Below, piece after piece: positions 23,443-42,625 of a DNA stretch of 64,000 bases. The stretch comes from Candidatus Latescibacterota bacterium (lineage in GTDB: Bacteria; Latescibacterota; UBA2968; UBA8231): assembly GCA_007136405.1 (NCBI GenBank), contig SLHA01000021.1, forward strand, positions 1 to 64,000. Reading direction: 5' to 3'. The notes below the pieces were generated by a model. That model was not told the origin of the DNA, searched no databases, and worked only from the letters and a program-made list of their open reading frames with translations. Positions within the stretch are counted from its first letter, which is position 1. Every line of letters starts with the position of its first letter. The translations under genes and the position numbers were made by a program.

Positions 23443-24471
23443 TCAACCCGCCAATGCTGCGGCCTGGTCGGCCGCGGCACTGACCAGGTTGACCAGCCGG
23501 CCATATGGCATCCGCGTGGGTCCGATTATGCCAATGACCCCATGGGCGCCCGCGACTTCATAACTGGATGTCACCACGCTGCACATGCGCATGGCCGCAG
23601 CCCGGTTTTCCCGCCCGATGGTGATGACCATCCCATGGCGGCTGCCGAGCAGGCGGGCAAGCTCCTGCCGGCGCTCGACCAGTGCCATCAATGCGGCAAC
23701 CTGCATGGGATCGTGAAATTCCGGCTTGAGGCATATGTTATGCGTCCCAGCCACATGCAACTCCGCTCCGTTGGGTGCAGTCAAGTCCTCTATGTGCCGG
23801 GACACCGCTTGTATGAGCTGAGGGCCGGCGAGCCGATCGAGCTCGACCAGCCGTGCCTGGACGGAACCGCGGATCTCTGCCAGGGTCAAACCAGCCAGAC
23901 GTTCGTTCAGCAACCGGCTAACCGTCTCCAGGTCACGGCTGGCTGTCTGCGCATCCGCTTTGATTACCAGGCTGCGGACCAGCCCATGGCGAATGGTGAC
24001 CAGCAGCAGAATACGGCCACCCTCCAGACCGACCAGCTCCAGCCGCTGCAGGACACCTTGTTCGAAACAGGGTGCCATCACCACTCCGAGTTGATGCGAG
24101 ACATCACCGAGGACGTGGGCCAGTTGAGCCAGAATCTCCTGAAAGCCGCCCTCTTGCAGGTGTTCCCGCAGGGCTTCTGCCAACCGGGTGTCCTCGGTAT
24201 CCTCCGCGAAACCACCGTCCCGCATACGCTGAGCCACATACAGACGGTAGCCTCTATCCGTAGGTATACGACCCGCCGACGTATGCCGCTGCTCTGCCAG
24301 TCCTTTTTCCTCCAGGCGCCCCAATGTCGCCCGGACTGTGGCCGAGCTGATACTCAGGCCGCTCCGGCGACACAACGTGCGCGACCCCACCGGCGCCCCG
24401 GTCTCCACATGCGCCTCGACCAGAGCGTGCAACACCTGGCTTTCGCGCTCTGTAAGGATTTTGGCATTCAT
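23443..24471 (-). CDS. hrcA: Heat-inducible transcription repressor HrcA
   Basis: The 342-aa product has an N-terminal winged helix (LTERESQVLHALVEAHVETG, then GSRTLCRRSGLSISSATVRA and LEEKGLAEQRHTSAGRIPTD), then the GAF-like domain and the C-terminal IGPTRMPYGRLVNLVSA motif. HrcA represses hrcA/grpE/dnaJ/dnaK and groE operons at CIRCE inverted repeats. No canonical CIRCE is visible in its own upstream region. It is the first gene of the heat-shock operon, and the ATG has no obvious ribosome-binding site. Confidence 0.97.
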   Translation of the reverse strand: MNAKILTERESQVLHALVEAHVETGAPVGSRTLCRRSGLSISSATVRATLGRLEEKGLAEQRHTSAGRIPTDRGYRLYVAQRMRDGGFAEDTEDTRLAEALREHLQEGGFQEILAQLAHVLGDVSHQLGVVMAPCFEQGVLQRLELVGLEGGRILLLVTIRHGLVRSLVIKADAQTASRDLETVSRLLNERLAGLTLAEIRGSVQARLVELDRLAGPQLIQAVSRHIEDLTAPNGAELHVAGTHNICLKPEFHDPMQVAALMALVERRQELARLLGSRHGMVITIGRENRAAAMRMCSVVTSSYEVAGAHGVIGIIGPTRMPYGRLVNLVSAAADQAAALAG

Positions 24472-24509
24472 GGCGTTGGTGTGTGTCCGTAATCAAAGCT
24501 AGCTAACTA

Positions 24510-24537
24510 ATGATAAAACCGACAGATGCGATGTCAA
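24510..24537 (-). promoter_or_regulatory. Promoter of the hrcA operon
   Basis: On the minus strand TTGACA (24532-24537), a 16-base spacer and TATCAT (24510-24515) lie just upstream of hrcA. The predicted start region overlaps TTAGCTAGCT, a short palindrome. TTAGCACTC-N9-GAGTGCTAA (CIRCE) is not present. Confidence 0.65.
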
Positions 24538-24546
24538 GGGGGCCGC

Positions 24547-25506
24547 TCAAGGCAATTCCGGACAGGCCTGCATCAAGGGCTTCACGAGGGACGCGTCGAC
24601 CGGTCGACCGAGTTGCCTCCAGGCCAGCAAAGCTGCGCCCATAGCCGGCGGTAGCAACGGTTGCCGCCGCGACACGTTGACGCCCGACCGCGCGGTCTCC
24701 CGGGCCACGACCGGCCATATGGCGTCCGGACCGCGGAACAATCCGCCCGCGCAGGCCACCGGTACCATGCCGTCCATGGACAGACTCCTGACTACGGCGA
24801 CCACCTGGCGACCCAGAATGTTCCCGTGGTACTCGACGATGTCCGCGGCGACCTCGTCCCGCGCAGCGGCTTCCAGGACATGCGGCGCCAGGGACGCGAT
24901 CCGGTCCCGGTCCATGCTGCCCGAGTACAGCATACCGACGAGATCGTCCCAATGATCCAGGTCCAGATCTTCCTGCAAGGACTGGGCCAGTGCCGTGTTC
25001 CGGCCCCACCCGTCACGAGCTCGAAAAACAGCCCTCAATCCATCCAATCCGAGCCAATACCCGCTACCCTCGTCACCCAACAACGGTCCCCAGCCCCCGG
25101 CCCGGGCCTCCGTTCCGTTGGCCTGTTTGCCCATGACGATGGAGCCCGTTCCGGCAATGACGATGAGCCCGGCCTGGCCGCCATGCGCTCCCTCGAGCGC
25201 AGCTCTGGCGTCTGTAACCACGGAGACTCGGACTGCCCAGCCATGCTCCTGCACGAGCTGGACGATTTCGCGTTGCTCGCGTTCCCGTCCGGCGCCTGCC
25301 AGCGCCAGCGTCAGCGAAACAGGAACCGAGCCGGGATCGACGTCCATCCGCTCGAACATGGAAGGTACGAGCCGCACCAACCCCTCCCTGCCGATCATCT
25401 GGTAATTGCCGGTGCTCCCCACAGTCCATCCATGGATGCTCCCGGCATCCGTAAGCGCGATACCCCGTGTCCGCGTGCCGCCTCCGTCCAGTCCCACCAC
25501 CACCAT
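24547..25506 (-). CDS. BadF/BadG/BcrA/BcrD-type sugar kinase (N-acetylglucosamine kinase-like)
   Basis: The ATG at 25506 (GGAGAAGGA upstream) gives 319 aa. The ASKHA ATPase fold is clear: phosphate-1 VVGLDGGGTRTRGIALTD, GNYQMIG, LALAGAGRERE, phosphate-2 IVIAGTGSIVMGK, WGPLLGDEGSGYWLGLDGLR and adenosine motif ACAGGLF. The GDEGSGYWLG and GTGS pattern fits the eukaryote-type GlcNAc kinase branch, which phosphorylates amino sugars from cell-wall or chitin recycling; substrate is inferred. It sits alone between the hrcA operon and the flagellar block. A TTGACA 40-45 bases upstream of the ATG could be its -35 box, but the -10 is poor. Confidence 0.85.
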   Translation of the reverse strand: MVVVGLDGGGTRTRGIALTDAGSIHGWTVGSTGNYQMIGREGLVRLVPSMFERMDVDPGSVPVSLTLALAGAGREREQREIVQLVQEHGWAVRVSVVTDARAALEGAHGGQAGLIVIAGTGSIVMGKQANGTEARAGGWGPLLGDEGSGYWLGLDGLRAVFRARDGWGRNTALAQSLQEDLDLDHWDDLVGMLYSGSMDRDRIASLAPHVLEAAARDEVAADIVEYHGNILGRQVVAVVRSLSMDGMVPVACAGGLFRGPDAIWPVVARETARSGVNVSRRQPLLPPAMGAALLAWRQLGRPVDASLVKPLMQACPELP

Positions 25507-25553
25507 GGGATCCTTCTCCCTGTAACAGCCCTCACGGCCGCACGGTGTCAACC

Positions 25554-25606
25554 GCCTTCCGGATTGGCCAGACGGCTCCAACAACAAACGGAGCGATACG
25601 GAAGGC
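25554..25606. other. Two-tier hairpin between flgM and the kinase gene
   Basis: GCCTTCCG (25554-25561) pairs with CGGAAGGC (25599-25606), and an inner GCTCC (25575-25579) pairs with GGAGC (25590-25594). It lies 50 bases after the flgM stop, where the flagellar transcript would end, but has no T tract. Confidence 0.35.
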
Positions 25607-25655
25607 ATCGCCCCGCTGGACTCCAAACGAACCGCGAATACCGGTCAAGCCACCA

Positions 25656-26111
25656 TCACGTCAAGGTGTCCAACACCCGTTTGGCAATCTCTTGACGCAC
25701 TGCCGCATCCTCGTAGAATCCTTCGCGCACCCGCGCTGCCGCCTGCTGCACGCTCTCCGAACGCGTATCCGGAACGCTTTGCAGTTCCTCCCGGGCGCCA
25801 TGGACCCGGGCCGAGTCCGCGCCAACATCCCGCATGGCGCCTGCTTCGAGCATGCTGGCCGCTATCTGCTGCCGCACCTGCGGCGAGTTGTAATAGGACG
25901 ACCGCACCCGTTCGCGCAACTCGTCGATCCGCGCGCTGCTGGCCTCAGGGGCCGTGCGGGCGGCTTCCGCCAGTTCATGCACATCCGATGCCTCAGGCGT
26001 CAGCTCCAGGCTGTCGCCAACCTCTTCTGTGCCTTTTCTGATGCGGGATGAAGAACCACGCGGCTCACTCTGGGGGAGCTGGGGCTGCGAAGAAATCCCG
26101 TCGACTTGCAT
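25656..26111 (-). CDS. flgM: FlgM-like anti-sigma-28 factor with duplicated helical segment
   Basis: The 151-aa product contains a FlgM-type region: DSLELTPEASDVHELAEAAR, then RIDELRERVRSSYYNSPQVR and QQIAASML, the part that binds sigma-28 (FliA). A second copy of the last helices follows (SVQQAAARVREGFYEDAAVR, QEIAKRVLD), making it about 50 residues longer than typical FlgM. The N-terminus is Ser/Gln/Pro-rich and probably disordered, as expected for an exported FlgM. It is the last gene of the flagellar block, after fliS and the FliT-like gene. sigma-28 (fliA) itself is not in the window. Confidence 0.75.
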   Translation of the reverse strand: MQVDGISSQPQLPQSEPRGSSSRIRKGTEEVGDSLELTPEASDVHELAEAARTAPEASSARIDELRERVRSSYYNSPQVRQQIAASMLEAGAMRDVGADSARVHGAREELQSVPDTRSESVQQAAARVREGFYEDAAVRQEIAKRVLDTLT

Positions 26112-26282
26112 CAGACCGACTCTCGTGCCAAGGGTGTTTGCCGCGGCCGGTCACTCCAGTTCACTGGACGGCCGGAGAACGGAATACGCAGAGGTTTTCT
26201 CAGAACGCGGACGATCCCAAGTTCACCCATCCTGCGGAGGAATATACGAGAAATGGTCCTTCAGGCCAATCGTGTCACAGAT

Positions 26283-26747
26283 TCATCGAATACCGTCGAA
26301 CAGACGGGATGTCCGTTCACCCCGGGCCTGAAGCGCACGCTGGCCGTACCGGCGAACCGCCCGGGAACCGGAATCCAGCAGTCGCAGTTCCTCTCGGGCA
26401 GCCGCCAGCAGACGCTGGGCCGATTCCTGGTTGCGTTCCTGCAGGCGCTGGATCTGGCCTATCAAATCACACAGATCCCGGCGACGCCGGCACACATCCT
26501 GGGCCTGCTCGCCCCCCCTCCGCATGTTTTTCTGACGTACACGAATGCGATCCATGAGCCGGCGCATGCGGACAATAGAACGCTCGAGAGCCGGCAAGTC
26601 ATCCTGGTCTATGCAGGCCTCCTGTTCCAGGCTCAATGCGTGTAATGCTTCAAAGTCGGCGTATTCTGCCTCCAGCAGTACCAGATGCGGGTGTCTCGCA
26701 TTCTGTTCCATGGGGTTCCGGATTGGTTCCATAGGCGTGTTCGGCAT
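26283..26747 (-). CDS. FliT/FlgN-like flagellar export chaperone
   Basis: A 154-aa, almost wholly helical protein (ADFEALHALSLEQEACIDQD, LPALERSIVRMRRLMDRIRV) with the Leu/Glu/Arg pattern of FlgN/FliT chaperones, which keep late flagellar subunits unfolded for export. Its place directly after fliD-fliS is the classical fliT position, so FliD would be the likely client. Sequence conservation in this family is low and the assignment rests largely on context and helical character. FlgN for FlgK/FlgL is encoded separately at 41666-42169. Confidence 0.6.
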   Translation of the reverse strand: MPNTPMEPIRNPMEQNARHPHLVLLEAEYADFEALHALSLEQEACIDQDDLPALERSIVRMRRLMDRIRVRQKNMRRGGEQAQDVCRRRRDLCDLIGQIQRLQERNQESAQRLLAAAREELRLLDSGSRAVRRYGQRALQARGERTSRLFDGIR

Positions 26748-26797
26748 CCGGCAGAACTCGATGCGTGTATCGCGTTCTGCTCCATCAGGACTTGGGC

Positions 26798-27235
26798 CTA
26801 TCCGGTCAGGGTGACGCCGGCCGGCTGGTCCGCCTGCTGGTCTGCACCGGCTTCCCCCGAGACCACGCTTTCCCAGGCCGCGAGCAGTCTCGTCAGCAGC
26901 GTGTTGATCTCTTCGACGATCTTCCTGTCCACCTGCAAATTTGCAGCGATCAGACGGCGGTAGGCGTAGAGGTAGAGGCGCTGCAGATTCAGGGCTAATT
27001 CATTACCGTCATCCAGCATCTGTTGATCGAGCGCAAAAAGCAGCTCCAGAACGATATCCTGAGCCCGGATCAACGCATTGCCCTTGCCCTCCATATCGCC
27101 CTGATCGATGTGACTCACGGCCAGGTTGAGGTTGCGAATCGCACCCTGGTAGAGCATGACGATCAGCTTGCCCCGGTTGGCCGTCTGTATCTGCACCTGA
27201 TTGTATTGCCTGGATCCGATTCGCCGCATACTCAT
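26798..27235 (-). CDS. fliS: Flagellin export chaperone FliS
   Basis: The 145-aa product has the FliS signature: YNQVQIQTANRGKLIVMLYQ, GAIRNLNLAVSHI, NALIRAQDIVLELLFALD, NLQRLYLYAYRRLIAANL and a C-terminal helix ending in an Ala/Gln tail. It binds the flagellin C-terminus in the cytoplasm and prevents premature polymerisation. GGGAAGGG lies upstream of the ATG, and a second ATG two codons in is an alternative. The gene starts 45 bases after fliD. Confidence 0.95.
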   Translation of the reverse strand: MSMRRIGSRQYNQVQIQTANRGKLIVMLYQGAIRNLNLAVSHIDQGDMEGKGNALIRAQDIVLELLFALDQQMLDDGNELALNLQRLYLYAYRRLIAANLQVDRKIVEEINTLLTRLLAAWESVVSGEAGADQQADQPAGVTLTG

Positions 27236-27280
27236 CAGCTGATGCCCTTCCCTGCGTCCAATCGCCCCCGCGGACGACTG

Positions 27281-30200
27281 TCAGCCACTGTTGTTCATCA
27301 AGCCTGCCAGTTGCGCGGACAGGAAATTGGCCTGGGATTGCATGGCCGCGATGGCCCCCTCCAACGCCGAGAACCTCCTGACCAGGCTGATCCGGTATTG
27401 CTCCACCCGGCGTTCGGTGTCGGCGATACGGTTGTCCAGGTTTCGAATGGTCGAATCTAGCGCGTCGGTGCGGTTTTTCAGCGTGCCGTCATAATGATCG
27501 GTGATCGACTGCAGCGTATCATGCAACTGCCGTGCCACACCGTAAGTCAGTTTGACCATGCCCCGGTCCGTCCCAGTCTGATCCAATTGGTGTTGTTCCA
27601 GAGCCACGCGCACCGAGAGTCCGTCCGTGGTTTCGTTGCCGCTGGCGCCGGTGAGGATGCGGCCAAGGCCTTCCGCGGGTTCTCCGTTGATGGTACCGGC
27701 CACGTCGACACCGAGGTAATCGCCTGCTGCCAATCCCAGAGCGGGTGGACTCTCCAGCACGGTAAAACCATGGGCACTTCCGTACCCACTATGTTCCAGT
27801 ACGAGTCGATCGCCTTCCCGGGAGGCGCGGAGTTCCACACCATAGCGTCCGCTGACCTCTGACGCCAGACTGCCGAAGCTGACACTACCCCCTCCTTCAT
27901 TGCCCTCGATAAGTGTTACAGACAACTGACTGGTACCCAATTGGTTATCTGATACAAGAAGGCGTCCCTCGGCATCTATGGAAGCACTCACGCGACCGCC
28001 AAAGGCACGCCGAATCTCGTCCAGCAGATCACCGATTGTGGTGGTGTCCGGAGCCTCGATCCGAAAAGTGCGGCTGACGCTGGTACCGTCATGAGTTGTG
28101 CCATTGATGCGTATGGTGTCACCCGCTTTTGATTCTGCACCGAAGATACCGGCAAAAGTGGTCGATGCTGTGACCGGGGTTGAGCCATCGGTAGTGTTGG
28201 CCAGGCTGGAACGTCGTACTGCGGCGATGTCGGAGCTGGTGGCAGCGTTGATCTGCCCGACGATGGTTTCCAGGGAAGCACCGGCCTCCAATTCGACAAT
28301 CACCGTCTGGTTGGTGGCCCGGTCCCGAAGCGTCAGCGTCCGATCTTCGGCCAGCGCACCGGTGAACTCCTCCGAGCCCATCAGAAAACCTCTGGTGGCG
28401 GCCCGAGTGATCTCGACCGCGTATGCACCAGCCTGCGTCCGACTGCTGCTGGAGAGAAAGGTGATGCCATCGTCGGCGGTGGTTCCCTGAGCCACGAAGA
28501 TTTTTTTCACGGCGGAGAGGTTCTCGGCGAGGGCCTGATCGAGCCGTTCCTCGTTCACACCGAGGCGTCCATGCCGGTCGAAGGACAACCCTACCAGCAC
28601 CAGAGCATTGTACTCGTCATCCAGGCCCGCGATCTCTCCTGTCATGACGGCACGCAACTGCGACTGCAGTGTCAACAGGGTCACATCGCCGGACAGTGGC
28701 CCTGCCGATTTCTTCTCCTCGACGTATACGAACTGCTCGTTGATCAGATCCATCGCTTTGTTGTAATCCGCTACGAAGGTCTGGATCCGTTGCCGCAGCT
28801 CTCGCGTATCATCACGGGTCACCGTCACATTGACAAGGTGTCCAGGTTCCGCCTGCTGTAGATCCAGGGTAACGCCCTGGACGGCATCCGAAATCGTGTT
28901 GGAGTCACGCGACAGCATGATGCCGTTGATCGCTATCTGCGCGTCACGGCCGGCCTGCAACTGGGAGGAACGGGCGTTGGTGCCCCGCCGGGTCACGGAC
29001 ATCGTGCCCAGATCGAGGCTGCCGTCGCCCTCGTTGTTGACGCGCAGGTTGGCGGTCAATCCGCTCTGCCCGGCCTGCTCGTCGACCACGACCACACGTC
29101 CGTGGCTGTCTACACTGGCACTCACCTGGCCGCCGAAAGTCTGCTCGATCGCACTGAGCAGATTCTGCAAGCGCAGGTTCGGGCTGGATATGGTGAAAGT
29201 TGCGGCAACCTGGTCACCGGCGTGGTTGGTGCCCTGGATGGAAATGGTGTCTCCGGCCTGTACTCCGGCTCCGACAATCTCGGAAAAGCGGGTCTCGGCC
29301 GTCATGGCCACAGGCGCGCTCAGCAGACCCAGGGTTTCCAGTACCCCGCCGTCTTCGACCAAATCCGTCGTACCGTCTATCTGCAGCTCGTAGCCTCCAT
29401 CCAACTCGTTGATGGTGGCCGTAACCCCTGCAGGCGCCGCGGCGTTGATCTTGTCGCGCATCGATTCCAGCGAATCTGTCTCCAGATCAAGGGCGATCCA
29501 TGCACCGCCGATGCTCACCATGCCACTATTCACGGTGCCGGTCATAGCGCCGATGGAATCCTGGTCGCTGGCAAATGTGGCGGTCCGGGCGCCCCCCTCT
29601 ACCGGATTGACCAGAGTACCGACCTGCTGGTTGGCGACATTGCCGGTGAGGACCTGGTGTACTGCGGCAAACGTGTTGTTCGTGCCAGCCAGAACGCCCA
29701 GGGTCTGCAGGACATTGTTGCTGTCTTCCAATTCACGGGTTCCATCGATCCGCAGACGGAATTGCGCCTTGCCCTCGGCATCCGTATCGCGCACCACCGT
29801 GGCGACCACGCCGTGGAGATCGACATCATTGATGCGTGTCTGTATATCGGTCAATGTGTCCGACGCCAGATCGATATCGATCTCGGCGCCCCCGATTCGC
29901 ACGCTTCCGGCCGGAGCGTTCCCCAGGCCCAGCAACAAACCTACGGCGGTAGCCGTGCTGGCGTACCGGTCACTCTCCACCCCGGTCACCATGGGAGTCG
30001 CGAGGGTGCCGTCGCTGAAGATACCCAGGGCCTCCAGGATACCACCGTCGTCGATGAAAGTCGTGGTGCCCTGTACATCCAGGTGATATCGAGTCAGGCC
30101 GTCGAGCGCATCCGATGAGATGGTGGCCTGGACTCCGGCGGAGGCCGCGGCGTTGATCTTGTCCCGGACCGATTCCAGCGTGTCCGCAGCCAGATCTACC

Positions 30201-30943
30201 GCGATCTGCCGATTGCCCACGGTGATCGTTCCGGCGGGCGGCGACATCAGACCGACAAGGCTTCCAATGGTCTCGTCCGCAGCCAGAAAGCCGTCACTTC
30301 TGGCGCCATTCTCGAAGGCGTTCTTGATGGTGGTGTTGCTGGACAGGAATCCCAGCGCCTGCAGCACGTTGGCCGTGCTGGCATCCTTGAGGTCGAAACC
30401 TTGGGCGCCGACCTTGTCCGCTGAGAGGATGAGGCGGTTGTCGCTGGCGTTGACCGAGAGCACCTGGGCCGACACACCGGCGTTTGCCGCGTTGATCCTG
30501 TCGCGCAGATCGAGCAGTGTGTCCGACTCTTCCAGCCGGACGCCCTGGCCGTTGATGACGAATTCACCACTGATGTGTAGCGGTGCGGAAACAGCACCCA
30601 GAGACCGCGAGGACAGCCGCCTCGCCTCTGCCAGGTTGTGCACCTCAACCGTGAAACCACCGGCTGCGGCCTTGTTGTCAGCCGACACGCCGATCCTGTC
30701 CGGAGCAGAGGATAGCGCCTGAACCACGCTGAACAACTCGTCTTTCTGCAACTGCGCCACAGATTCCTTCAGGGACAGCAGACTCGAGTTGATCGTCTGT
30801 ACGGCACTTTTCCTGCCCTCCAGCTCGAGCTGCTGGTTCTGCATCATGACGATGGGGCGCCGTTCGATGTCGACGAGTTGCTTGATGATCGCATCCGAGT
30901 CCAACCCGGATCCCAGGCCGGAAAAGGTAATACCGGTAGACAT
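27281..30943 (-). CDS. fliD: Giant flagellar filament cap protein FliD
   Basis: FliD caps the growing filament and folds incoming flagellin. The ends are standard: N-terminus ITFSGLGSGLDSDAIIKQLV and EGRKSAVQTINSSLLSLKES; C-terminus TDALDSTIRNLDNRIADTER and QANFLSAQLAGLMNN. At 1,220 aa it is about twice the usual 450-650. The extra length is repeats: four flagellin-IN-like modules at about 122-201, 224-310, 332-419 and 461-542 (each with xxDTLxxxRDxINAA and ending xxLxxLGxLS), and two copies of another module at about 551-645 and 929-1027 (xAGDTIxIxGTxHxG, xFGGxVSASxDxxGRxxV). GGAG precedes the ATG. It lies between flaG and fliS. Confidence 0.95.
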   Translation of the reverse strand: MSTGITFSGLGSGLDSDAIIKQLVDIERRPIVMMQNQQLELEGRKSAVQTINSSLLSLKESVAQLQKDELFSVVQALSSAPDRIGVSADNKAAAGGFTVEVHNLAEARRLSSRSLGAVSAPLHISGEFVINGQGVRLEESDTLLDLRDRINAANAGVSAQVLSVNASDNRLILSADKVGAQGFDLKDASTANVLQALGFLSSNTTIKNAFENGARSDGFLAADETIGSLVGLMSPPAGTITVGNRQIAVDLAADTLESVRDKINAAASAGVQATISSDALDGLTRYHLDVQGTTTFIDDGGILEALGIFSDGTLATPMVTGVESDRYASTATAVGLLLGLGNAPAGSVRIGGAEIDIDLASDTLTDIQTRINDVDLHGVVATVVRDTDAEGKAQFRLRIDGTRELEDSNNVLQTLGVLAGTNNTFAAVHQVLTGNVANQQVGTLVNPVEGGARTATFASDQDSIGAMTGTVNSGMVSIGGAWIALDLETDSLESMRDKINAAAPAGVTATINELDGGYELQIDGTTDLVEDGGVLETLGLLSAPVAMTAETRFSEIVGAGVQAGDTISIQGTNHAGDQVAATFTISSPNLRLQNLLSAIEQTFGGQVSASVDSHGRVVVVDEQAGQSGLTANLRVNNEGDGSLDLGTMSVTRRGTNARSSQLQAGRDAQIAINGIMLSRDSNTISDAVQGVTLDLQQAEPGHLVNVTVTRDDTRELRQRIQTFVADYNKAMDLINEQFVYVEEKKSAGPLSGDVTLLTLQSQLRAVMTGEIAGLDDEYNALVLVGLSFDRHGRLGVNEERLDQALAENLSAVKKIFVAQGTTADDGITFLSSSSRTQAGAYAVEITRAATRGFLMGSEEFTGALAEDRTLTLRDRATNQTVIVELEAGASLETIVGQINAATSSDIAAVRRSSLANTTDGSTPVTASTTFAGIFGAESKAGDTIRINGTTHDGTSVSRTFRIEAPDTTTIGDLLDEIRRAFGGRVSASIDAEGRLLVSDNQLGTSQLSVTLIEGNEGGGSVSFGSLASEVSGRYGVELRASREGDRLVLEHSGYGSAHGFTVLESPPALGLAAGDYLGVDVAGTINGEPAEGLGRILTGASGNETTDGLSVRVALEQHQLDQTGTDRGMVKLTYGVARQLHDTLQSITDHYDGTLKNRTDALDSTIRNLDNRIADTERRVEQYRISLVRRFSALEGAIAAMQSQANFLSAQLAGLMNNSG

Positions 30944-31033
30944 CCATCGCTCCAGTTCTTCAGCCCCTCAGGCCGGCTCCCTACCCGGTTGCCGGTACAA
31001 AGACGCAGGCCCGAAGTTATACAGCAGCAAACT

Positions 31034-31405
31034 TCAGGCCTGAGCGTCGAACAGTAGTCCGACGATCTGTTTCACGCTCACATTGGCGTCCAGTATCTGC
31101 TGGGGAGGTATCTGTTTGATCAGCTCTCCGGTTACTGAATCCGTGATGATGACCACGAGCATCCCGCTCGCATCATCCACAGTTACGGAAAATCTTTCCT
31201 TCATCTGCCTCAACGTGTCGTTGATCCGTGCAGCGATCGTTTCCACCTGTTGCCGCCGCGCCGGACCGTCGTCATCCACATGGCTGATGCCATTCGTAGC
31301 ATCTACACCCATCGCACTACGCTGCATATTCCGCTGCGCTGGCTCGATGCCGGGCTCACCGGGGATCGTCTGCCGATCACTGAGTTTCACCAGTCCATGT
31401 ATCAT
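31034..31405 (-). CDS. flaG: FlaG-family flagellar protein
   Basis: A 123-aa protein whose C-terminal half is FlaG-like: MKERFSVTVDDASGMLVVII, DSVTGELIKQIPPQQILD. The N-terminus is polar and variable. FlaG proteins influence filament length in several flagellates; the mechanism is unclear. It sits in its usual place between flagellin and fliD, 90 bases before fliD. Confidence 0.85.
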   Translation of the reverse strand: MIHGLVKLSDRQTIPGEPGIEPAQRNMQRSAMGVDATNGISHVDDDGPARRQQVETIAARINDTLRQMKERFSVTVDDASGMLVVIITDSVTGELIKQIPPQQILDANVSVKQIVGLLFDAQA

Positions 31406-31501
31406 GCCACCTCACCCCTCGCGGAGGCGTGTACCGCAGGCAGAACGCGTTACCTCATTGCATCTCCTCCAGCGTGAAGCGTTGGGTCAGGAGGCGAATG
31501 A

Positions 31502-31567: not shown

Positions 31568-32728
31568 CTACTGCAGCAAAGCCAGCGCGTTCTGCGGCTG
31601 CACATTGGCTTGTGCAAGCATGGCGGTTGCCGCCTGCGCCAATACCTGCGCCCGGGTGTAACTGGTCACCTCCGCGGCGATGTCGGCATCGCTGATCGAG
31701 GCCTCCGAAGCCTGGATGTTCTCGATCGCGTTTTCCGTGTACGCCATGGTGAAAGCCAGACGGTTCTGGAGAGCACCCAGGTCACCACGCTGCTGCGCTA
31801 CCACCCCGATGGCCTTGTCGACGGACGTGATGGCACTGCGCGAGGTGGTGAGGGTAGCCACCGATGCCACCCCCAGATTCAGATTGGCTCCGGTGGCCTG
31901 CATGTCCGTGATACTCACCTCGATGCGGTTGAAGGCCTGGTCCGTAGGGCCTACCTGAAACGAGCCGCCGGTACCGGGCTCGATGACGATGGTCTGACCA
32001 TCCAGATCACCGTCGGTGTAGGAACCTGCAGCGCTGGCGACATCCTCCCCCGCCAAAGTCAACTGCACGCCCAGGCGATCGAAGTTGGCCACCACCTGGG
32101 TTCCGGTGGCAACGGATCCACCATCGAGTATCGTTCCCACGCTGATGGTCTGTGTCACGATGCCGTTGCCCAGGGTGATCTCGTTGTCTGCCGCCTGGTC
32201 CACGAACGTGTACGTGCCGGCGCTGGCGCCCGATATCCTGACGTCAGTGACGCCGCTGGCAGGACTCTCCGTGATCACCGTCGACACATCACTGACCGTG
32301 TTCCCGTACCCCGTCAGGAGGGTATGGTTGTTGTAGGTGGTAGCCTGGGCGATGCGGTCGATTTCCTGCGACAGCTGGGAAAATTCAGCCTGTATGGAAG
32401 CGCGGTTGCCGTCGTTGACCGTGCTCGAGGCCGACTGAGTGGCCAGTTCACGCATGCGGATGAGGATGGCGTTGATCTCGTTCAGCGATCCTTCAGCCAC
32501 CTGGATGAGATTCGATCCCTGCTCGGCGTTCAACACGTTCATCCGCAGCGAGGCAATATCGCCCCGCATGCCTTCCCGCACCGAGAGGCCGGCGGCATCA
32601 TCCGCGGCACGGTTGACCCGCAGCCCGGAAGCCAGACGCTCCAGATGCAGGTTCAGTGTTTTCTGATTCTGGTTCAGATTCCGCCTGGCGTTGAGGGCGG
32701 AGATGTTGTTGTTCACTCTAAGCGTCAT
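31568..32728 (-). CDS. Flagellin paralogue 1
   Basis: Filament subunit of 386 aa with the conserved D0/D1 ends: N-terminal NNISALNARRNLNQNQKTLN, LERLASGLRVNRAADDAAGL, RGDIASLRMNVLNAEQGSNL; C-terminal ALQNRLAFTMAYTENAIENI, then QASEASISDADIAAEV and AMLAQANVQPQNALALLQ. The surface-exposed middle (about 165-285) is moderately long and variable. GGAGG lies 9 bases from the ATG, and the leader from the sigma-28-like promoter is about 175-190 bases. Confidence 0.97.
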   Translation of the reverse strand: MTLRVNNNISALNARRNLNQNQKTLNLHLERLASGLRVNRAADDAAGLSVREGMRGDIASLRMNVLNAEQGSNLIQVAEGSLNEINAILIRMRELATQSASSTVNDGNRASIQAEFSQLSQEIDRIAQATTYNNHTLLTGYGNTVSDVSTVITESPASGVTDVRISGASAGTYTFVDQAADNEITLGNGIVTQTISVGTILDGGSVATGTQVVANFDRLGVQLTLAGEDVASAAGSYTDGDLDGQTIVIEPGTGGSFQVGPTDQAFNRIEVSITDMQATGANLNLGVASVATLTTSRSAITSVDKAIGVVAQQRGDLGALQNRLAFTMAYTENAIENIQASEASISDADIAAEVTSYTRAQVLAQAATAMLAQANVQPQNALALLQ

Positions 32729-32914
32729 GTAGTCGAACCTCCGTGTTTAGCTGTCCGAAGTGGCATCCATGCCTGGTGCTTCGCATGCCGTTCCCCAACG
32801 ACACGCATAACCCGATCGATCAACCATGAACCCCGCAGCACTGTGTGATTCGCTCACCTCCTTGTCCGGCGTCACCATCCTTGATCCCGAGCCCTGGGAG
32901 AGTATTGTATTCTA

Positions 32915-32942
32915 CTATCGGCACTGAAAGGACTGGGCTTTA
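32915..32942 (-). promoter_or_regulatory. Sigma-28-type promoter of flagellin 1
   Basis: On the minus strand TAAAG (32938-32942) and GCCGATAG (32915-32922) match the FliA consensus TAAAGTTT-N11-GCCGATAA with the spacing one base longer. It is the only such signal in the 351-base flagellin 2-flagellin 1 gap. Confidence 0.7.
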
Positions 32943-33079
32943 ATGATTTTGCCATACCCAGGCCACCTTCGGGAGGCATCTTCCCATCCTCCGGCATACC
33001 GCTCCAGCACCATTGTACCGCATCAGGCCGCCATGGATAGCGGCAGCACCATCACCCAGCTGGAGGAAGCGGCCGTGAA

Positions 33080-34252
33080 TCATTGCAGCAATGTCAAAGC
33101 CGACTGCGGTGTCAACTGGGCCTGACTGAGCATGGCGGTCGCAGCCTGTGACAGAATCTGAGACCGGGTAAAACGTGTAATCTCAGCAGCGATGTCGGCA
33201 TCGCGCACCGCAGCCTCTGAATTCGTGTTGTACTCGATCGAATTACCCGTGAAACCGATCGTGTGCTGCAGACGGTTCATCGCAGCACCGAGGGCGCCAC
33301 GCTGGTTGGAGACGGTCTCGATGGCCTGATCGATCCTTGCGAGGGAGGCCCGAGCGCCGGCCCGGGTACTCAGCGAAATCCCGTTCAGATTCAGCGTGGC
33401 ACCGCTGGCTCGCATGTCACTCATGCTGAGTTCGATCCGGTCGGCGGCAACATCACTGGCGCCCACCTGGAACGACCCCCTGGTGGCTACTTCCACCTGC
33501 AGCGTTGCACCGTCCAGATCGCCCTTGACGTAGTTGCCCGGCGCATCGGCGACACCGTCGCCCACCAGAACCACCTGTACACCCAGCCGGTCGAAATTCA
33601 GCACAGCAGTCGTCCCTACGGCCACCGCGTCATTCCGGTCGAGAAGGGCGCCAATGCTGATCGTCTGGCCGATGGTACCGTTGGTCAGCGTTATCAGACC
33701 GTCAGCAGCTGAATCCGTAAAGGTGTAGGTTCCGGCCGGCAGGCCGGAGACTCTGACTCGGCTCACTCCCGTGGTCGCGCTGGCACTGATCGCGGTGGAC
33801 GCCACAGGGTCGACCTGATTGCCGCAACCGGTCAACAGAACCGTGTCGTTATATACGGTCGAATGAGCGATTCGATCGATCTCCTGCCGAATCTGGTTGA
33901 CCTCGGCCTCGATCGACTCACGGTTCCTATCGTTGACCGTACTGCTGGACGCCTGCACGGCCAGCTCGCGCAACCGGAGGAGCTTGGCGCTCACCTCGTT
34001 GAGCGCTCCTTCCGCCACCTGAACCAGATTCGCACCCATTACGGCGTTGCGAACCCCCATGCGCAAGCCCGAGATCCGGGCACGGAAGCCCTCGGATATG
34101 CTAAGGCCTGCAGCGTCATCGTCGGCAGCAGTGATGCGCAGACCGGATGACAGGCGCTGCAGACGAGTATTGAGATCCCGGTTGGTCGCGGACATGTGCC
34201 GCCGAGTGTTGATGGCGGCCAGATTGTTGGAAACGTTGAGGGCAACGGCCAT
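33080..34252 (-). CDS. Flagellin paralogue 2
   Basis: A 390-aa flagellin: NVSNNLAAINTRRHMSATNR, LQRLSSGLRITAADDDAAGL, RISGLRMGVRNAVMGANLVQ, C-terminal AMNRLQHTIGFTGNSIEYNT and AMLSQAQLTPQSALTLLQ. It is the most divergent of the three: NAVMGANL replaces the NAEQGTSL type, and NSIEYNTNSEA replaces ENAIENIxAxES. A single Cys is seen in LLTGCGNQV. AGGGAGG lies 7 bases before the ATG. It has its own sigma-28-like promoter. Confidence 0.96.
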   Translation of the reverse strand: MAVALNVSNNLAAINTRRHMSATNRDLNTRLQRLSSGLRITAADDDAAGLSISEGFRARISGLRMGVRNAVMGANLVQVAEGALNEVSAKLLRLRELAVQASSSTVNDRNRESIEAEVNQIRQEIDRIAHSTVYNDTVLLTGCGNQVDPVASTAISASATTGVSRVRVSGLPAGTYTFTDSAADGLITLTNGTIGQTISIGALLDRNDAVAVGTTAVLNFDRLGVQVVLVGDGVADAPGNYVKGDLDGATLQVEVATRGSFQVGASDVAADRIELSMSDMRASGATLNLNGISLSTRAGARASLARIDQAIETVSNQRGALGAAMNRLQHTIGFTGNSIEYNTNSEAAVRDADIAAEITRFTRSQILSQAATAMLSQAQLTPQSALTLLQ

Positions 34253-34360
34253 AACTCATCCTCCCTGTCACCTGGCTGTGCTGGTGTCACACAGACTCCG
34301 CGTAGTCGAGCCCGCACATTGATATCAATTGATACCACTTGACACCGCTACTTACTACTT

Positions 34361-34387
34361 GTATCGACCAGGTCCAGGCACTCTTGA
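34361..34387 (-). promoter_or_regulatory. Sigma-28-type promoter of flagellin 2
   Basis: On the minus strand TCAAG (34383-34387) and GTCGATAC (34361-34368) fit the FliA consensus with one mismatch in the -35 core, two mismatches in the -10 (G-T-CGATA-C) and exactly the consensus spacing. The ATG is about 105 bases downstream. Confidence 0.6.
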
Positions 34388-34415
34388 GTACTATCTGCCA
34401 CCCTCGTCCATCATA

Positions 34416-35852
34416 TCACTGCAGCAGCTGGAGCGCTGTCTGCGGCAAGGCGTTGGCCTGAGCCACCATGGCTGTGGCCGCCTGCGTGAGGATCTGACTG
34501 GTGGTAAAGGAAGAGATCTCGGCCGCCATATCGGCATCACGTATCGCCGATTCCGCCGCCGACAGGTTCTCGATGGCGTTTTCCAGATTGGCCATGGTGT
34601 AGCTCAGGCGATTCTGCACGGATCCCAGTTCGCCGCGCTGGCGGGTCACCGCCAGAATCGCGGTATCGACACGCGAAATGGCCGCTCTGGAGCTTTCCTG
34701 GTTGGCCACGGACAGCCCCGACAGATTCAACAACGGACCGCTGGCCCGCATGTCGCCGATGCTCAGCTCTATCCTGTTGGATGCCGTTTCGTTGGGCCCC
34801 ACCTGCAGGGTGCCGCCCGTCCCGGGCTGGATGACGATCTGTTTACCGTCAAGGCGTCCGTCGATAAAGACGTTGGCATTCACCAGACCCAGGATATCGC
34901 TCATATCGTTGACGAGATGGCCCGCCGTTTCGATCTGCACCTCGTCCAGGGCAGCCTCATACCTGGCCGACCCGGGCGGCGACATGCCGGAGAGAACCGT
35001 ATCGAGCTGCACGGCGATGTCGCTCAACGACGCGCCGGGTGGAATGGCCGCTACTTCGTTGCCGATGACGATATTTCCGCCCGCTCCGCCATCGGCAGCC
35101 TGGCTTTTCAGTTTTGTCCCGTCGGCGTCGACACCCGCTCCGATCAGCGTGATCTGCACGCCCAGGCGGTCGAAGTTGGCCACGATAGTGGTGCCGGTGG
35201 CCACGAGATTGCGGTCGGCGTCCCGGTCGAGTGCAGTACCCAGATCGATGGACTGCTTGAGGATCGTCCCGTCCGGCTGCGTCACCGACAGGGTAATCTG
35301 GTTGTCGTCCGCACGGAGGTCTTCGAACTGGTAAACCCCGGGGATCGCTCCGGAGACTCCGACTTCGCTCACCCCGGAGAACCCGTCGAGGGCAGTGGAA
35401 AGCTGGCTGTCCTGGGCGACGGTGTTGCCGAAGCCGGTCAGCAGGATCTGATCGTTGTAGGTCGTCGACAGGGCGATGCGATCGATTTCCGCCGCCAGTT
35501 GGTTGAACTCGGCCGACAGCCCCTCCCGGTTGGCATCGTTGATCGTGGAGTTGGACGATTGAACCGCCAGCTCGCGCATGCGCCGGAGCATGTTGTTTAC
35601 TTCGTTGAGCGAACCCTCCGCCAATTGGATCAGGCTGGTTCCCTGTTCCGCATTGCGCACCCCCTGACGCATGCCCAAAATCTCCGCACGCATCCCTTCC
35701 GACACCGACAGACCAGCCGCATCATCGGCTCCACGGTTGATCCGCAGCCCCGATGACAGACGTTCGACCCGCTTGGTGAAGTCGGCGCTGTTGGCGTTGA
35801 GATGCCGCTGCGCATTGATGGATGTGATGTTGTTACCAAGGCGTATCGGCAT
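34416..35852 (-). CDS. Flagellin paralogue 3 (largest)
   Basis: The ATG at 35852 has AAAGGAGG 6 bases upstream and gives 478 aa; codons further upstream are non-coding. Conserved ends: NNITSINAQRHLNANSADFT, VERLSSGLRINRGADDAAGL, RQGVRNAEQGTSLIQLAEGS; C-terminal SVQNRLSYTMANLENAIENL and TAMVAQANALPQTALQLLQ. The central D2/D3-like domain (about 170-370) is nearly 100 residues longer than in the other two flagellins, with an acidic segment. It is the promoter-proximal flagellin and the only one with a sigma-54-type promoter. Confidence 0.97.
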   Translation of the reverse strand: MPIRLGNNITSINAQRHLNANSADFTKRVERLSSGLRINRGADDAAGLSVSEGMRAEILGMRQGVRNAEQGTSLIQLAEGSLNEVNNMLRRMRELAVQSSNSTINDANREGLSAEFNQLAAEIDRIALSTTYNDQILLTGFGNTVAQDSQLSTALDGFSGVSEVGVSGAIPGVYQFEDLRADDNQITLSVTQPDGTILKQSIDLGTALDRDADRNLVATGTTIVANFDRLGVQITLIGAGVDADGTKLKSQAADGGAGGNIVIGNEVAAIPPGASLSDIAVQLDTVLSGMSPPGSARYEAALDEVQIETAGHLVNDMSDILGLVNANVFIDGRLDGKQIVIQPGTGGTLQVGPNETASNRIELSIGDMRASGPLLNLSGLSVANQESSRAAISRVDTAILAVTRQRGELGSVQNRLSYTMANLENAIENLSAAESAIRDADMAAEISSFTTSQILTQAATAMVAQANALPQTALQLLQ

Positions 35853-35959
35853 GACAGACCTCCTTTGTCGCCGGCCTATGGGGCCCAGGTCGCCAGGCCC
35901 GGATACCTTGCCTTCCGGCCCGCGCACGCCTGCCGGAATGGCTTTGCTGGAGACCGTTA

Positions 35960-35976
35960 AGCAATCCGCATGCCAA
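35960..35976 (-). promoter_or_regulatory. Sigma-54-type promoter of flagellin 3
   Basis: On the minus strand TTGGCATGCGGATTGCT fits the RpoN consensus YTGGCACGRNNNTTGCW: the -24 GG and -12 GC are exactly 10 bases apart and TTGCT is intact. The ATG lies about 97 bases after the predicted start. It lies in a 352-base gap with no other feature identified. A sigma-28 site was not found there. Confidence 0.75.
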
Positions 35977-36204
35977 CCACCCAACAGCAGTCGAAAAACA
36001 CATCTAACATGTTGTCTTTTTGTTACTTATAACGACACTTCGACCGGCTTGCACGCAACGTTGGGGGGTGTGATGGAGAGGGTGGGGAAAAAACGCGAAC
36101 GGAGGTGGAAATGATTGCCTTGTAACCGGGAAAGCAATCGCGCCTCGATGAGCAGGATGGCCACCGCGACCGGGACCTACCAACTCAGTTACGGCCTGAT
36201 CCGC

Positions 36205-41665: not shown

Positions 41666-42169
41666 TCAGACGGTCTGATTGAGCACCGTTCGTTGTCCCT
41701 GACCCCGCCGCACCCGTCCGAACTGACCATACATACCCGTGGCCGGTGAACCACCGGTGAGAATGTCAAGGCAGCGTTCGGTGTAGCGCATCGACTGCCG
41801 GATCAGAAAGGCGTTATGGTCGCTGACGCGACGAATACACTCGCCCAGTTCCCGCAGCACCGTTCGCATGCGCCCCAGTTCCTCGCCTCCCTCGCCTTGC
41901 AGCAGATCGACCAGACAGGCCAGGCTGGCATCTACCGGACCGTCTGACCGGGCCTGCGCCAGGCGCTGGACCCACTGCACCCGCCGTTGCTCGCACTGCC
42001 CGGCTTCTGCGGCCGTGCGTTCCTGCTCGGCAACACTGGCTTCTATGCCCGTCGCATCGTTATCGACGATGGCACGCTGCATCTCCTGCATCGATTCCAG
42101 AAGCCGGTTGAACAAGCGGATTTCATCGTTGATGATATCCACCAGCGTTTGTACGTCTGGATCGTTCAT
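41666..42169 (-). CDS. flgN: FlgN-type export chaperone for FlgK/FlgL
   Basis: A 167-aa mostly helical protein: VQTLVDIINDEIRLFNRLLE, SMQEMQRAIVDNDATGIEAS and a Glu/Arg-rich middle match the weakly conserved FlgN family. The position immediately before flgK-flgL supports the call. The C-terminal region (MYGQFGRVRRGQGQRTVLNQ) is the GxYgxxGrxxxxxxxxxxxQ motif common in FlgN/FliT-like and FlgM-adjacent proteins. Confidence 0.8.
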   Translation of the reverse strand: MNDPDVQTLVDIINDEIRLFNRLLESMQEMQRAIVDNDATGIEASVAEQERTAAEAGQCEQRRVQWVQRLAQARSDGPVDASLACLVDLLQGEGGEELGRMRTVLRELGECIRRVSDHNAFLIRQSMRYTERCLDILTGGSPATGMYGQFGRVRRGQGQRTVLNQTV

Positions 42170-42211: not shown

Positions 42212-42625
42212 TCAGCCGGCGGTTCGATGCATGGGTGGCGCGTCGCTTCCCATTGGAACAGCAGCGCCTGGGCCCAACTCCATCTGCTGGCTCAACTGCC
42301 GGTACAGCAGATCGCTGATACTGCCAGTGGTCGTACTGCCAGCCAGCTTTCTGGCCCATTCCTCGTCCAGCATGCTCGTAAAGATCCTTGCGCCATGACT
42401 ACTGTCGACCAACCCCCCGTCGCCTACGGTCCGGCGCATGGCCGCCAGCATCTGCGTCAGGTAGACCGATTCGAATTCCTCCGACACCTGCTTCAATGCG
42501 GTGCGTATTCCTGCCGGATTGCCGCCGCTCATCCACTCCCGGATGCCTCGCGGCAGCGTGGAGGCCGCCTGGTGTATCGCTCCAACCGGCGCGGATGCCG
42601 CGGCGGCGATCGGTGGGCTCGTCAT
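42212..42625 (-). CDS. flgJ: FlgJ-type rod-binding protein (no muramidase domain)
   Basis: A 137-aa protein that corresponds to the N-terminal rod-capping half of FlgJ: ALKQVSEEFESVYLTQMLAA, MRRTVGDGGLVDSSHGARIF, TSMLDEEWARKLAGSTTTG and ISDLLYRQL. The peptidoglycan hydrolase half of enterobacterial FlgJ is absent, as in many phyla, so wall penetration needs a separate enzyme. It lies between flgI and flgN. Confidence 0.9.
   Translation of the reverse strand: MTSPPIAAAASAPVGAIHQAASTLPRGIREWMSGGNPAGIRTALKQVSEEFESVYLTQMLAAMRRTVGDGGLVDSSHGARIFTSMLDEEWARKLAGSTTTGSISDLLYRQLSQQMELGPGAAVPMGSDAPPMHRTAG

Follow-up and report, generated by a model that had tools for sequence, protein, structure and literature searches.

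FlgM holds back the late genes of the flagellum until the hook is built, and its export couples hook completion to the expression of the filament genes. Work on FlgM has dealt with a protein of one module. The gene analysed here raises the question of whether a FlgM can carry its sigma-binding helices twice and, if so, what the second copy does. It lies in a window of 64,000 nucleotides (the whole stretch of DNA that was analysed). The initial annotation had noticed a recurring motif in it and proposed an internal duplication of the sigma-binding helices, giving a two-headed FlgM that could bind sigma-28 with altered stoichiometry or hold two sigma factors. Literature searches on FlgM duplication, FlgM paralogues, and FlgM in these phyla gave no description of a two-module FlgM among the matches listed; most subscription papers lay outside their scope.

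The recurrence of the motif was borne out, and the similarity is wider than the motif. RVRSSYYNSPQVRQQIAASM starts at residue 68 and RVREGFYEDAAVRQEIAKRV at residue 127 of the 151-residue open reading frame (offset 59), and residues 30–89 align with residues 89–148 at the same offset, over 60 residues without a gap and with 28% identity. The ungapped BLOSUM62 score of this repeat (84) was reached by none of 1,500 shuffles of the whole sequence (best 52), and none of 10,000 shuffles of the second half reached the observed score at any of three cut points. The DNA identity between the copies (0.45) exceeds that of all 5,000 codon shuffles (best 0.433). By codon position, it amounts to 0.52, 0.58, and 0.25 for the first, second, and third, and Tandem Repeats Finder detected no DNA tandem repeats. 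Because the third codon positions have been randomised while the protein repeat was kept, the duplication is old and has been preserved at the protein level.

The full reading frame matches the Pfam FlgM family (PF04316) in two stretches, with 38.2 bits and thus above the cut-off of 25. It misses the cut-off of the NCBIfam equivalog TIGR03824 (28.5 versus 40.75 bits), a result that counts against the anti-sigma-28 reading favoured below, and we have therefore filed it in the FlgM family and not under this equivalog. A Pfam FlgM scan of the window's own genome gave 30.5 bits for the first half and 13.3 bits, below the cut-off, for the second. The second half alone exceeds this cut-off in relatives (34.9 bits in G046, 33.7 in G045, and 29.6 in G025). 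With a single-FlgM model made of six single-module FlgMs from the same class, the halves of the window protein score 36.3 and 35.8 bits, and all 32 halves of 16 proteins outscore every one of 640 shuffled halves (maximum 10.9 bits). On a second model, made of the E. coli FlgM and five FlgMs from the canonical slot, the two halves reach only 21.8 and 16.5 bits (the best shuffle scored 14.4), and 8 of the 32 halves stay below that shuffle; we have counted both results against the favoured reading. Judged by these profiles, both halves are FlgM homologues. The repeat, the two Pfam stretches, and the scoring of each half as FlgM support the proposed duplication of the sigma-binding helices.

Table 1. 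Features of the two-module flgM locus, in window coordinates.
Feature	Position	Strand	Basis
Two-module FlgM ORF, 151 aa, ATG start	25656..26111	(-)	Pfam FlgM and internal repeat
N-terminal tail (residues 1–29), predicted disordered, probable export region	26025..26111	(-)	pLDDT <50 at residues 1–9 and 11–34
DSLELT (residues 33–38), D-x-V-x-I/L-S-like FlgM segment, before module 1 only	25998..26015	(-)	Alignment column D33
Module 1 (residues 30–89); predicted helices 39–53, 55–70, 77–89	25845..26024	(-)	Repeat and predicted model
Module 2 (residues 90–150); predicted helices 92–111, 116–129, 136–150	25662..25844	(-)	Repeat and predicted model
FlgN-like (chaperone-like) gene, 154 aa, directly upstream of two-module flgM	26283..26747	(-)	Pfam FlgN 26.9 bits, below cut-off 30.5
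fliS	26798..27235	(-)	Pfam FliS 109.8 bits, NCBIfam fliS 93.7 bits
fliD, 1220 aa	27281..30943	(-)	Pfam FliD_N and FliD_C above cut-off
FlgN gene, canonical slot	41666-42169		
Rod-binding (FlgJ-type) gene	42212-42625		

The protein would thus run from a disordered tail through a complete sigma-28-binding unit (the D-x-V-x-I-S segment and three helices) to a second three-helix unit without the segment (Table 1). Column D33 is invariant in all 16 alignment rows, whereas the corresponding stretch of module 2 has no such segment. In the predicted model (pLDDT 70.9, pTM 0.25), six helices form two like triplets without a global fold, as expected if folding takes place upon binding to the partner. 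Foldseek returned no match for this model of pTM 0.25 (best E 9.4). A profile search of the PDB matched 9wsf and 1rp3 to module 1 only, which also counts against the favoured reading; its weak match of module 2 to a Pumilio protein (E 0.013) was taken as chance. Each module has the H3–H4 pair of known FlgMs (PF04316; E. coli b1071; Aquifex 1rp3/1sc5; 9wsf), with which the flagellar context is also shared. Residues 60–73 and 83–90 of the E. coli protein align to 59–72 and 84–91 in module 1 and to 118–131 and 143–150 in module 2. In Salmonella FlgM, a review describes M60–G73 and A83–A90 as helix-favouring parts that are essential for activity (PMC6275026). The window protein differs from known FlgMs by having two modules instead of one, by an H3–H4 loop two residues longer than in E. 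coli, and by the place of its gene behind fliD–fliS rather than beside flgN.

The gene belongs to a flagellar cluster, with fliD and fliS adjoining, and the genome encodes FliA; the place behind these two genes is found again in most relatives. All seven loci examined in family f1 have the order fliD, fliS, FlgN-like gene, two-module flgM, the last being placed at L115 by genome scan and not by tblastn. The genes fliD and fliS also precede it in four f3/f4 genomes, and in two f6 genomes they are followed by an ORF of 136–137 aa (without a Pfam family above cut-off) and then by the two-module flgM; FliS was confirmed by Pfam at both f6 loci. The contig of the f2 genome (G025) ends before the genes upstream, and outside the phylum fliS and fliD each lie just upstream in six of seven genomes. 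Hence, most two-module FlgMs sit behind fliD–fliS and not in the flgJ–flgM–flgN slot. In the window, the usual (non-defining) flgJ–flgM–flgN–flgK slot is empty of flgM, with the Rod-binding gene and flgN 42 bases apart. The single-module FlgMs of f2–f4 have no flagellar neighbours from the query set. The search for E. coli-type sigma-28 promoters gave no exact site, and the two-mismatch sites (3 and 3, versus 2.3 expected) were not above chance, which we have counted against the favoured reading; Rfam had no match in positions 24000–31500. The very long FliD contains five Flagellin_IN stretches, and sequence inspection showed three flagellin-like genes in tandem before fliD (31568–35984), kept in relatives.

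The scan for further copies took the window protein as query and covered 60 genomes, including the window's own (47 of the same class and 13 others of the phylum, apparently Latescibacterota). The window protein alone identified no relatives in a scan of genome contigs. The wider scan used an alignment of 5 rows, that of 16 rows being too variable for scanning. The two-module gene is present in 16 of the 47 same-class genomes, a count that takes in G004 (copy split over two contig ends) and G012 (second half frameshifted), and in 3 of the 13 further genomes (G048, G052, and G059). Outside the phylum, the repeat model found two modules in seven genomes of 38 public loci: three labelled Calditrichaeota (L086, L087, and L101), one labelled Delongbacteria (L095), and three without a placement (L082, L088, and L106). 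These loci were seeded from the family of the window protein and provide no census. The two-module FlgM thus appears to be a conserved fusion in the phylum and in some other bacterial groups. In G012:C336 (L014), module 2 continues in another frame, by assembly error or because the gene is broken, and on the same short contig (L077) FlgF/FlgG-like matches, not fliD, precede fliS.

The window's genome encodes exactly one FliA above the curated cut-off (269.5 bits; G000:C99). Such a FliA was found in 25 of the 60 genomes scanned, as a single gene in 24 of them, the window's genome included, and once in each of the seven genomes outside the phylum. The two-module FlgM and FliA co-occur: of the 47 same-class genomes, 13 have both, 3 the tandem gene only, 5 FliA only, and 26 neither (Fisher p 2.2e-5, uncorrected for kinship). 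In the window's family, G005, G009, G013, and G014 have FliA but show no tandem copy, and this counts against the favoured reading. The sole genome of the 60 with two FliA above the cut-off, G042 (C628 and C435; 281 and 211 bits), also has three FlgM-like genes.

We compared the columns of the two modules in 16 two-module proteins with the E. coli FlgM (b1071). The equivalent of E. coli L66 is V/L/I in all 16 first modules and A/T in 14 of the 16 second modules; that of I82 is I/V/M in all first modules and T/A in 11 of the second. The window protein has L65 and A124 at the former and I83 and I142 at the latter, and thus a small residue at one position only. R117, specific to module 2, is invariant in the 16 proteins. 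The initial annotation had named, as what would undo its proposal, a second segment that is unrelated and lacks FliA contact residues. The segment is related, and it lacks such residues in part: most second modules have small residues at two of the core hydrophobic positions. The heads are not equivalent, and the altered second copy suggests that the brake has been modified and not simply doubled. In a summed identity test, the same module was more similar across genomes than the two modules within one protein in 72 of 120 genome pairs. Between f1 and f2–4, like modules are 37.3% and 34.6% identical and unlike ones 22.1% and 29.7%; against the other class, the values come close to noise (like 21.7 and 23.6 versus unlike 20.5 and 17.0; like 25.7 and 22.9 versus unlike 23.1 and 17.4). 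A tree of the 44-residue module cores was set aside for its weak support.

Our best explanation, held with moderate confidence, is that the protein is an anti-sigma-28 factor in which module 1 would be the canonical clamp and module 2 a diverged accessory, most likely contacting the same FliA in a 1:1 complex. In its favour stand the FlgM homology of both halves, the single FliA above the cut-off in the window's genome, where no other FlgM was found, the co-occurrence with FliA in the class, and the one FliA in each of the seven genomes outside the phylum, six of which have a single FlgM by Pfam. Kept in the cell, it would sequester FliA and silence the late flagellar genes, and once the hook is finished it would be lost through the flagellar export gate. 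Module 2 would touch this FliA at further points and thereby strengthen or shape the wrap. A review of the crystal structure describes one FlgM encircling FliA and blocking both sigma2 and sigma4 (PMC4598750). Further contacts with one FliA are what an altered second helix unit would most simply add, and the asymmetry of the modules fits an asymmetric partner. RsiG, the c-di-GMP-armed anti-sigma of WhiG, is the product of an intragenic duplication, and in its twin-motif version it acts as a monomer on one sigma (PMC8325347). The likeness lies in the duplication of a helical unit within an anti-sigma of a FliA/WhiG-class sigma. RsiG differs by its c-di-GMP motif, E(X)3S(X)2R(X)3Q(X)3D, a search for which made up the comparison and which occurs in none of the 29 rows of the alignment, among them repeats of one protein. 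The two-module FlgM would be the second case, after RsiG, of duplication within an anti-sigma of this class, and its conservation in uncultured phyla would provide a natural experiment on how sigma domains and chaperones share the FlgM wrap.

Module 2 probably grips either the FliA that module 1 would hold or the chaperone FliS. The latter is reported, in Salmonella and Yersinia, to bind FlgM in a 1:1 ratio, at the FliA site or close to it, and to restrain FlgM export (PMC8306008, PMC8527033). FliS, whose site on FlgM lies close to that of FliA or overlaps it (PMC8306008), is the second good candidate. In that case, an export chaperone would dock on module 2, most likely FliS, whose gene lies two genes upstream, and one FlgM would hold FliA and FliS together without competition. 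The two-module gene follows fliS wherever fliS was detected (f1, f3, f4, both f6 loci, and six of the seven genomes outside the phylum), and module 2 has conserved residues of its own, such as R117, and its own small residues. However, the basis of this proposal is gene neighbourhood, and the region upstream varies (the FlgN-like gene in f1, another ORF in f6, and none detected outside the phylum), so that we consider it somewhat unlikely. It is similarly doubtful that jobs competing for one site in Salmonella have been split here, with module 1 on FliA and module 2 on FliS. If true, the two-module FlgM would be a bridge reporting the status of the flagellin chaperone directly to sigma-28.

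An arrangement of two working heads with one FliA each (1:2) strikes us as unlikely. Both halves are FlgM homologues, the predicted model gives both modules a common three-helix pattern, and their column conservation is correlated (Spearman 0.46, p 0.007, 33 positions), but module 2 systematically has Ala/Thr at the equivalents of L66 and I82 and is without the D-x-V-x-I-S segment. It is quite improbable that the second copy is a tolerated relic of little function. It is the more diverged copy, with the lower Pfam score in the window's genome, yet its columns vary about as little as those of module 1 (mean entropy 1.63 versus 1.51 bits) and less than the tail (1.89) and the linker (1.94), the nucleotide identity of the copies persists at codon positions 1 and 2 and not at 3, and the second module has been retained across two classes. 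Finally, the suggestion that the heads bind two different sigma factors found no support and is highly improbable: other partners exist in the window's genome (about eight further sigma-70-type genes, 99–120 bits on the FliA model), but FliA-positive genomes nearly always have one sigma-28 gene, and the sigma gene near the tandem gene of f6, considered as a further FliA, was rejected because it encodes a primary-type sigma with region 1.2.

In the window's genome, neither Pfam nor the single-FlgM model of the phylum finds an FlgM other than the two-module gene. Outside the phylum, Pfam finds one FlgM in six of the seven genomes, in an open frame of the tandem gene's length; in G063 it finds none and misses the tandem gene, so the absence of other FlgMs is limited by the Pfam model. 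A single-module FlgM accompanies the tandem form in G025, G035, G042, G045, G046, G048, and G052, and the tandem form therefore need not be the main anti-sigma in these seven genomes. The f1 genomes gave no single-module FlgM of this kind. Twelve of the 25 encode a protein of 65–70 aa with FlgM-like H3–H4 and invariant ERLLWI and RRAG (L134–L143; e.g., L136 4970–5179, + strand), which escapes the Pfam FlgM model. In f1, it occurs together with FliA in 11 genomes, alone in 1, and is absent from 2 with FliA and 11 without (p 2e-4, a weak match in G004 being scored as absent). The window's genome (86.7% complete) has none even at E 10, except for the tandem gene itself. After this protein was found, we rejected the idea that the tandem gene is the only FlgM-like gene of f1: as far as these searches reach, the gene seems to be the sole FlgM of the window's genome, which does not hold for the family. 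L030, taken for a broken tandem copy, is the 65–70-aa protein. In the three loci examined, polysaccharide export and Wzz-type genes precede this protein, and a malate/lactate dehydrogenase gene lies nearby, its identity tested in L136 only. G042 also carries a short additional FlgM-like ORF immediately upstream of its tandem gene (L017 929–1210, + strand); it scores 12.4 bits on Pfam FlgM, below the cut-off, and 47.7 bits on the repeat model.
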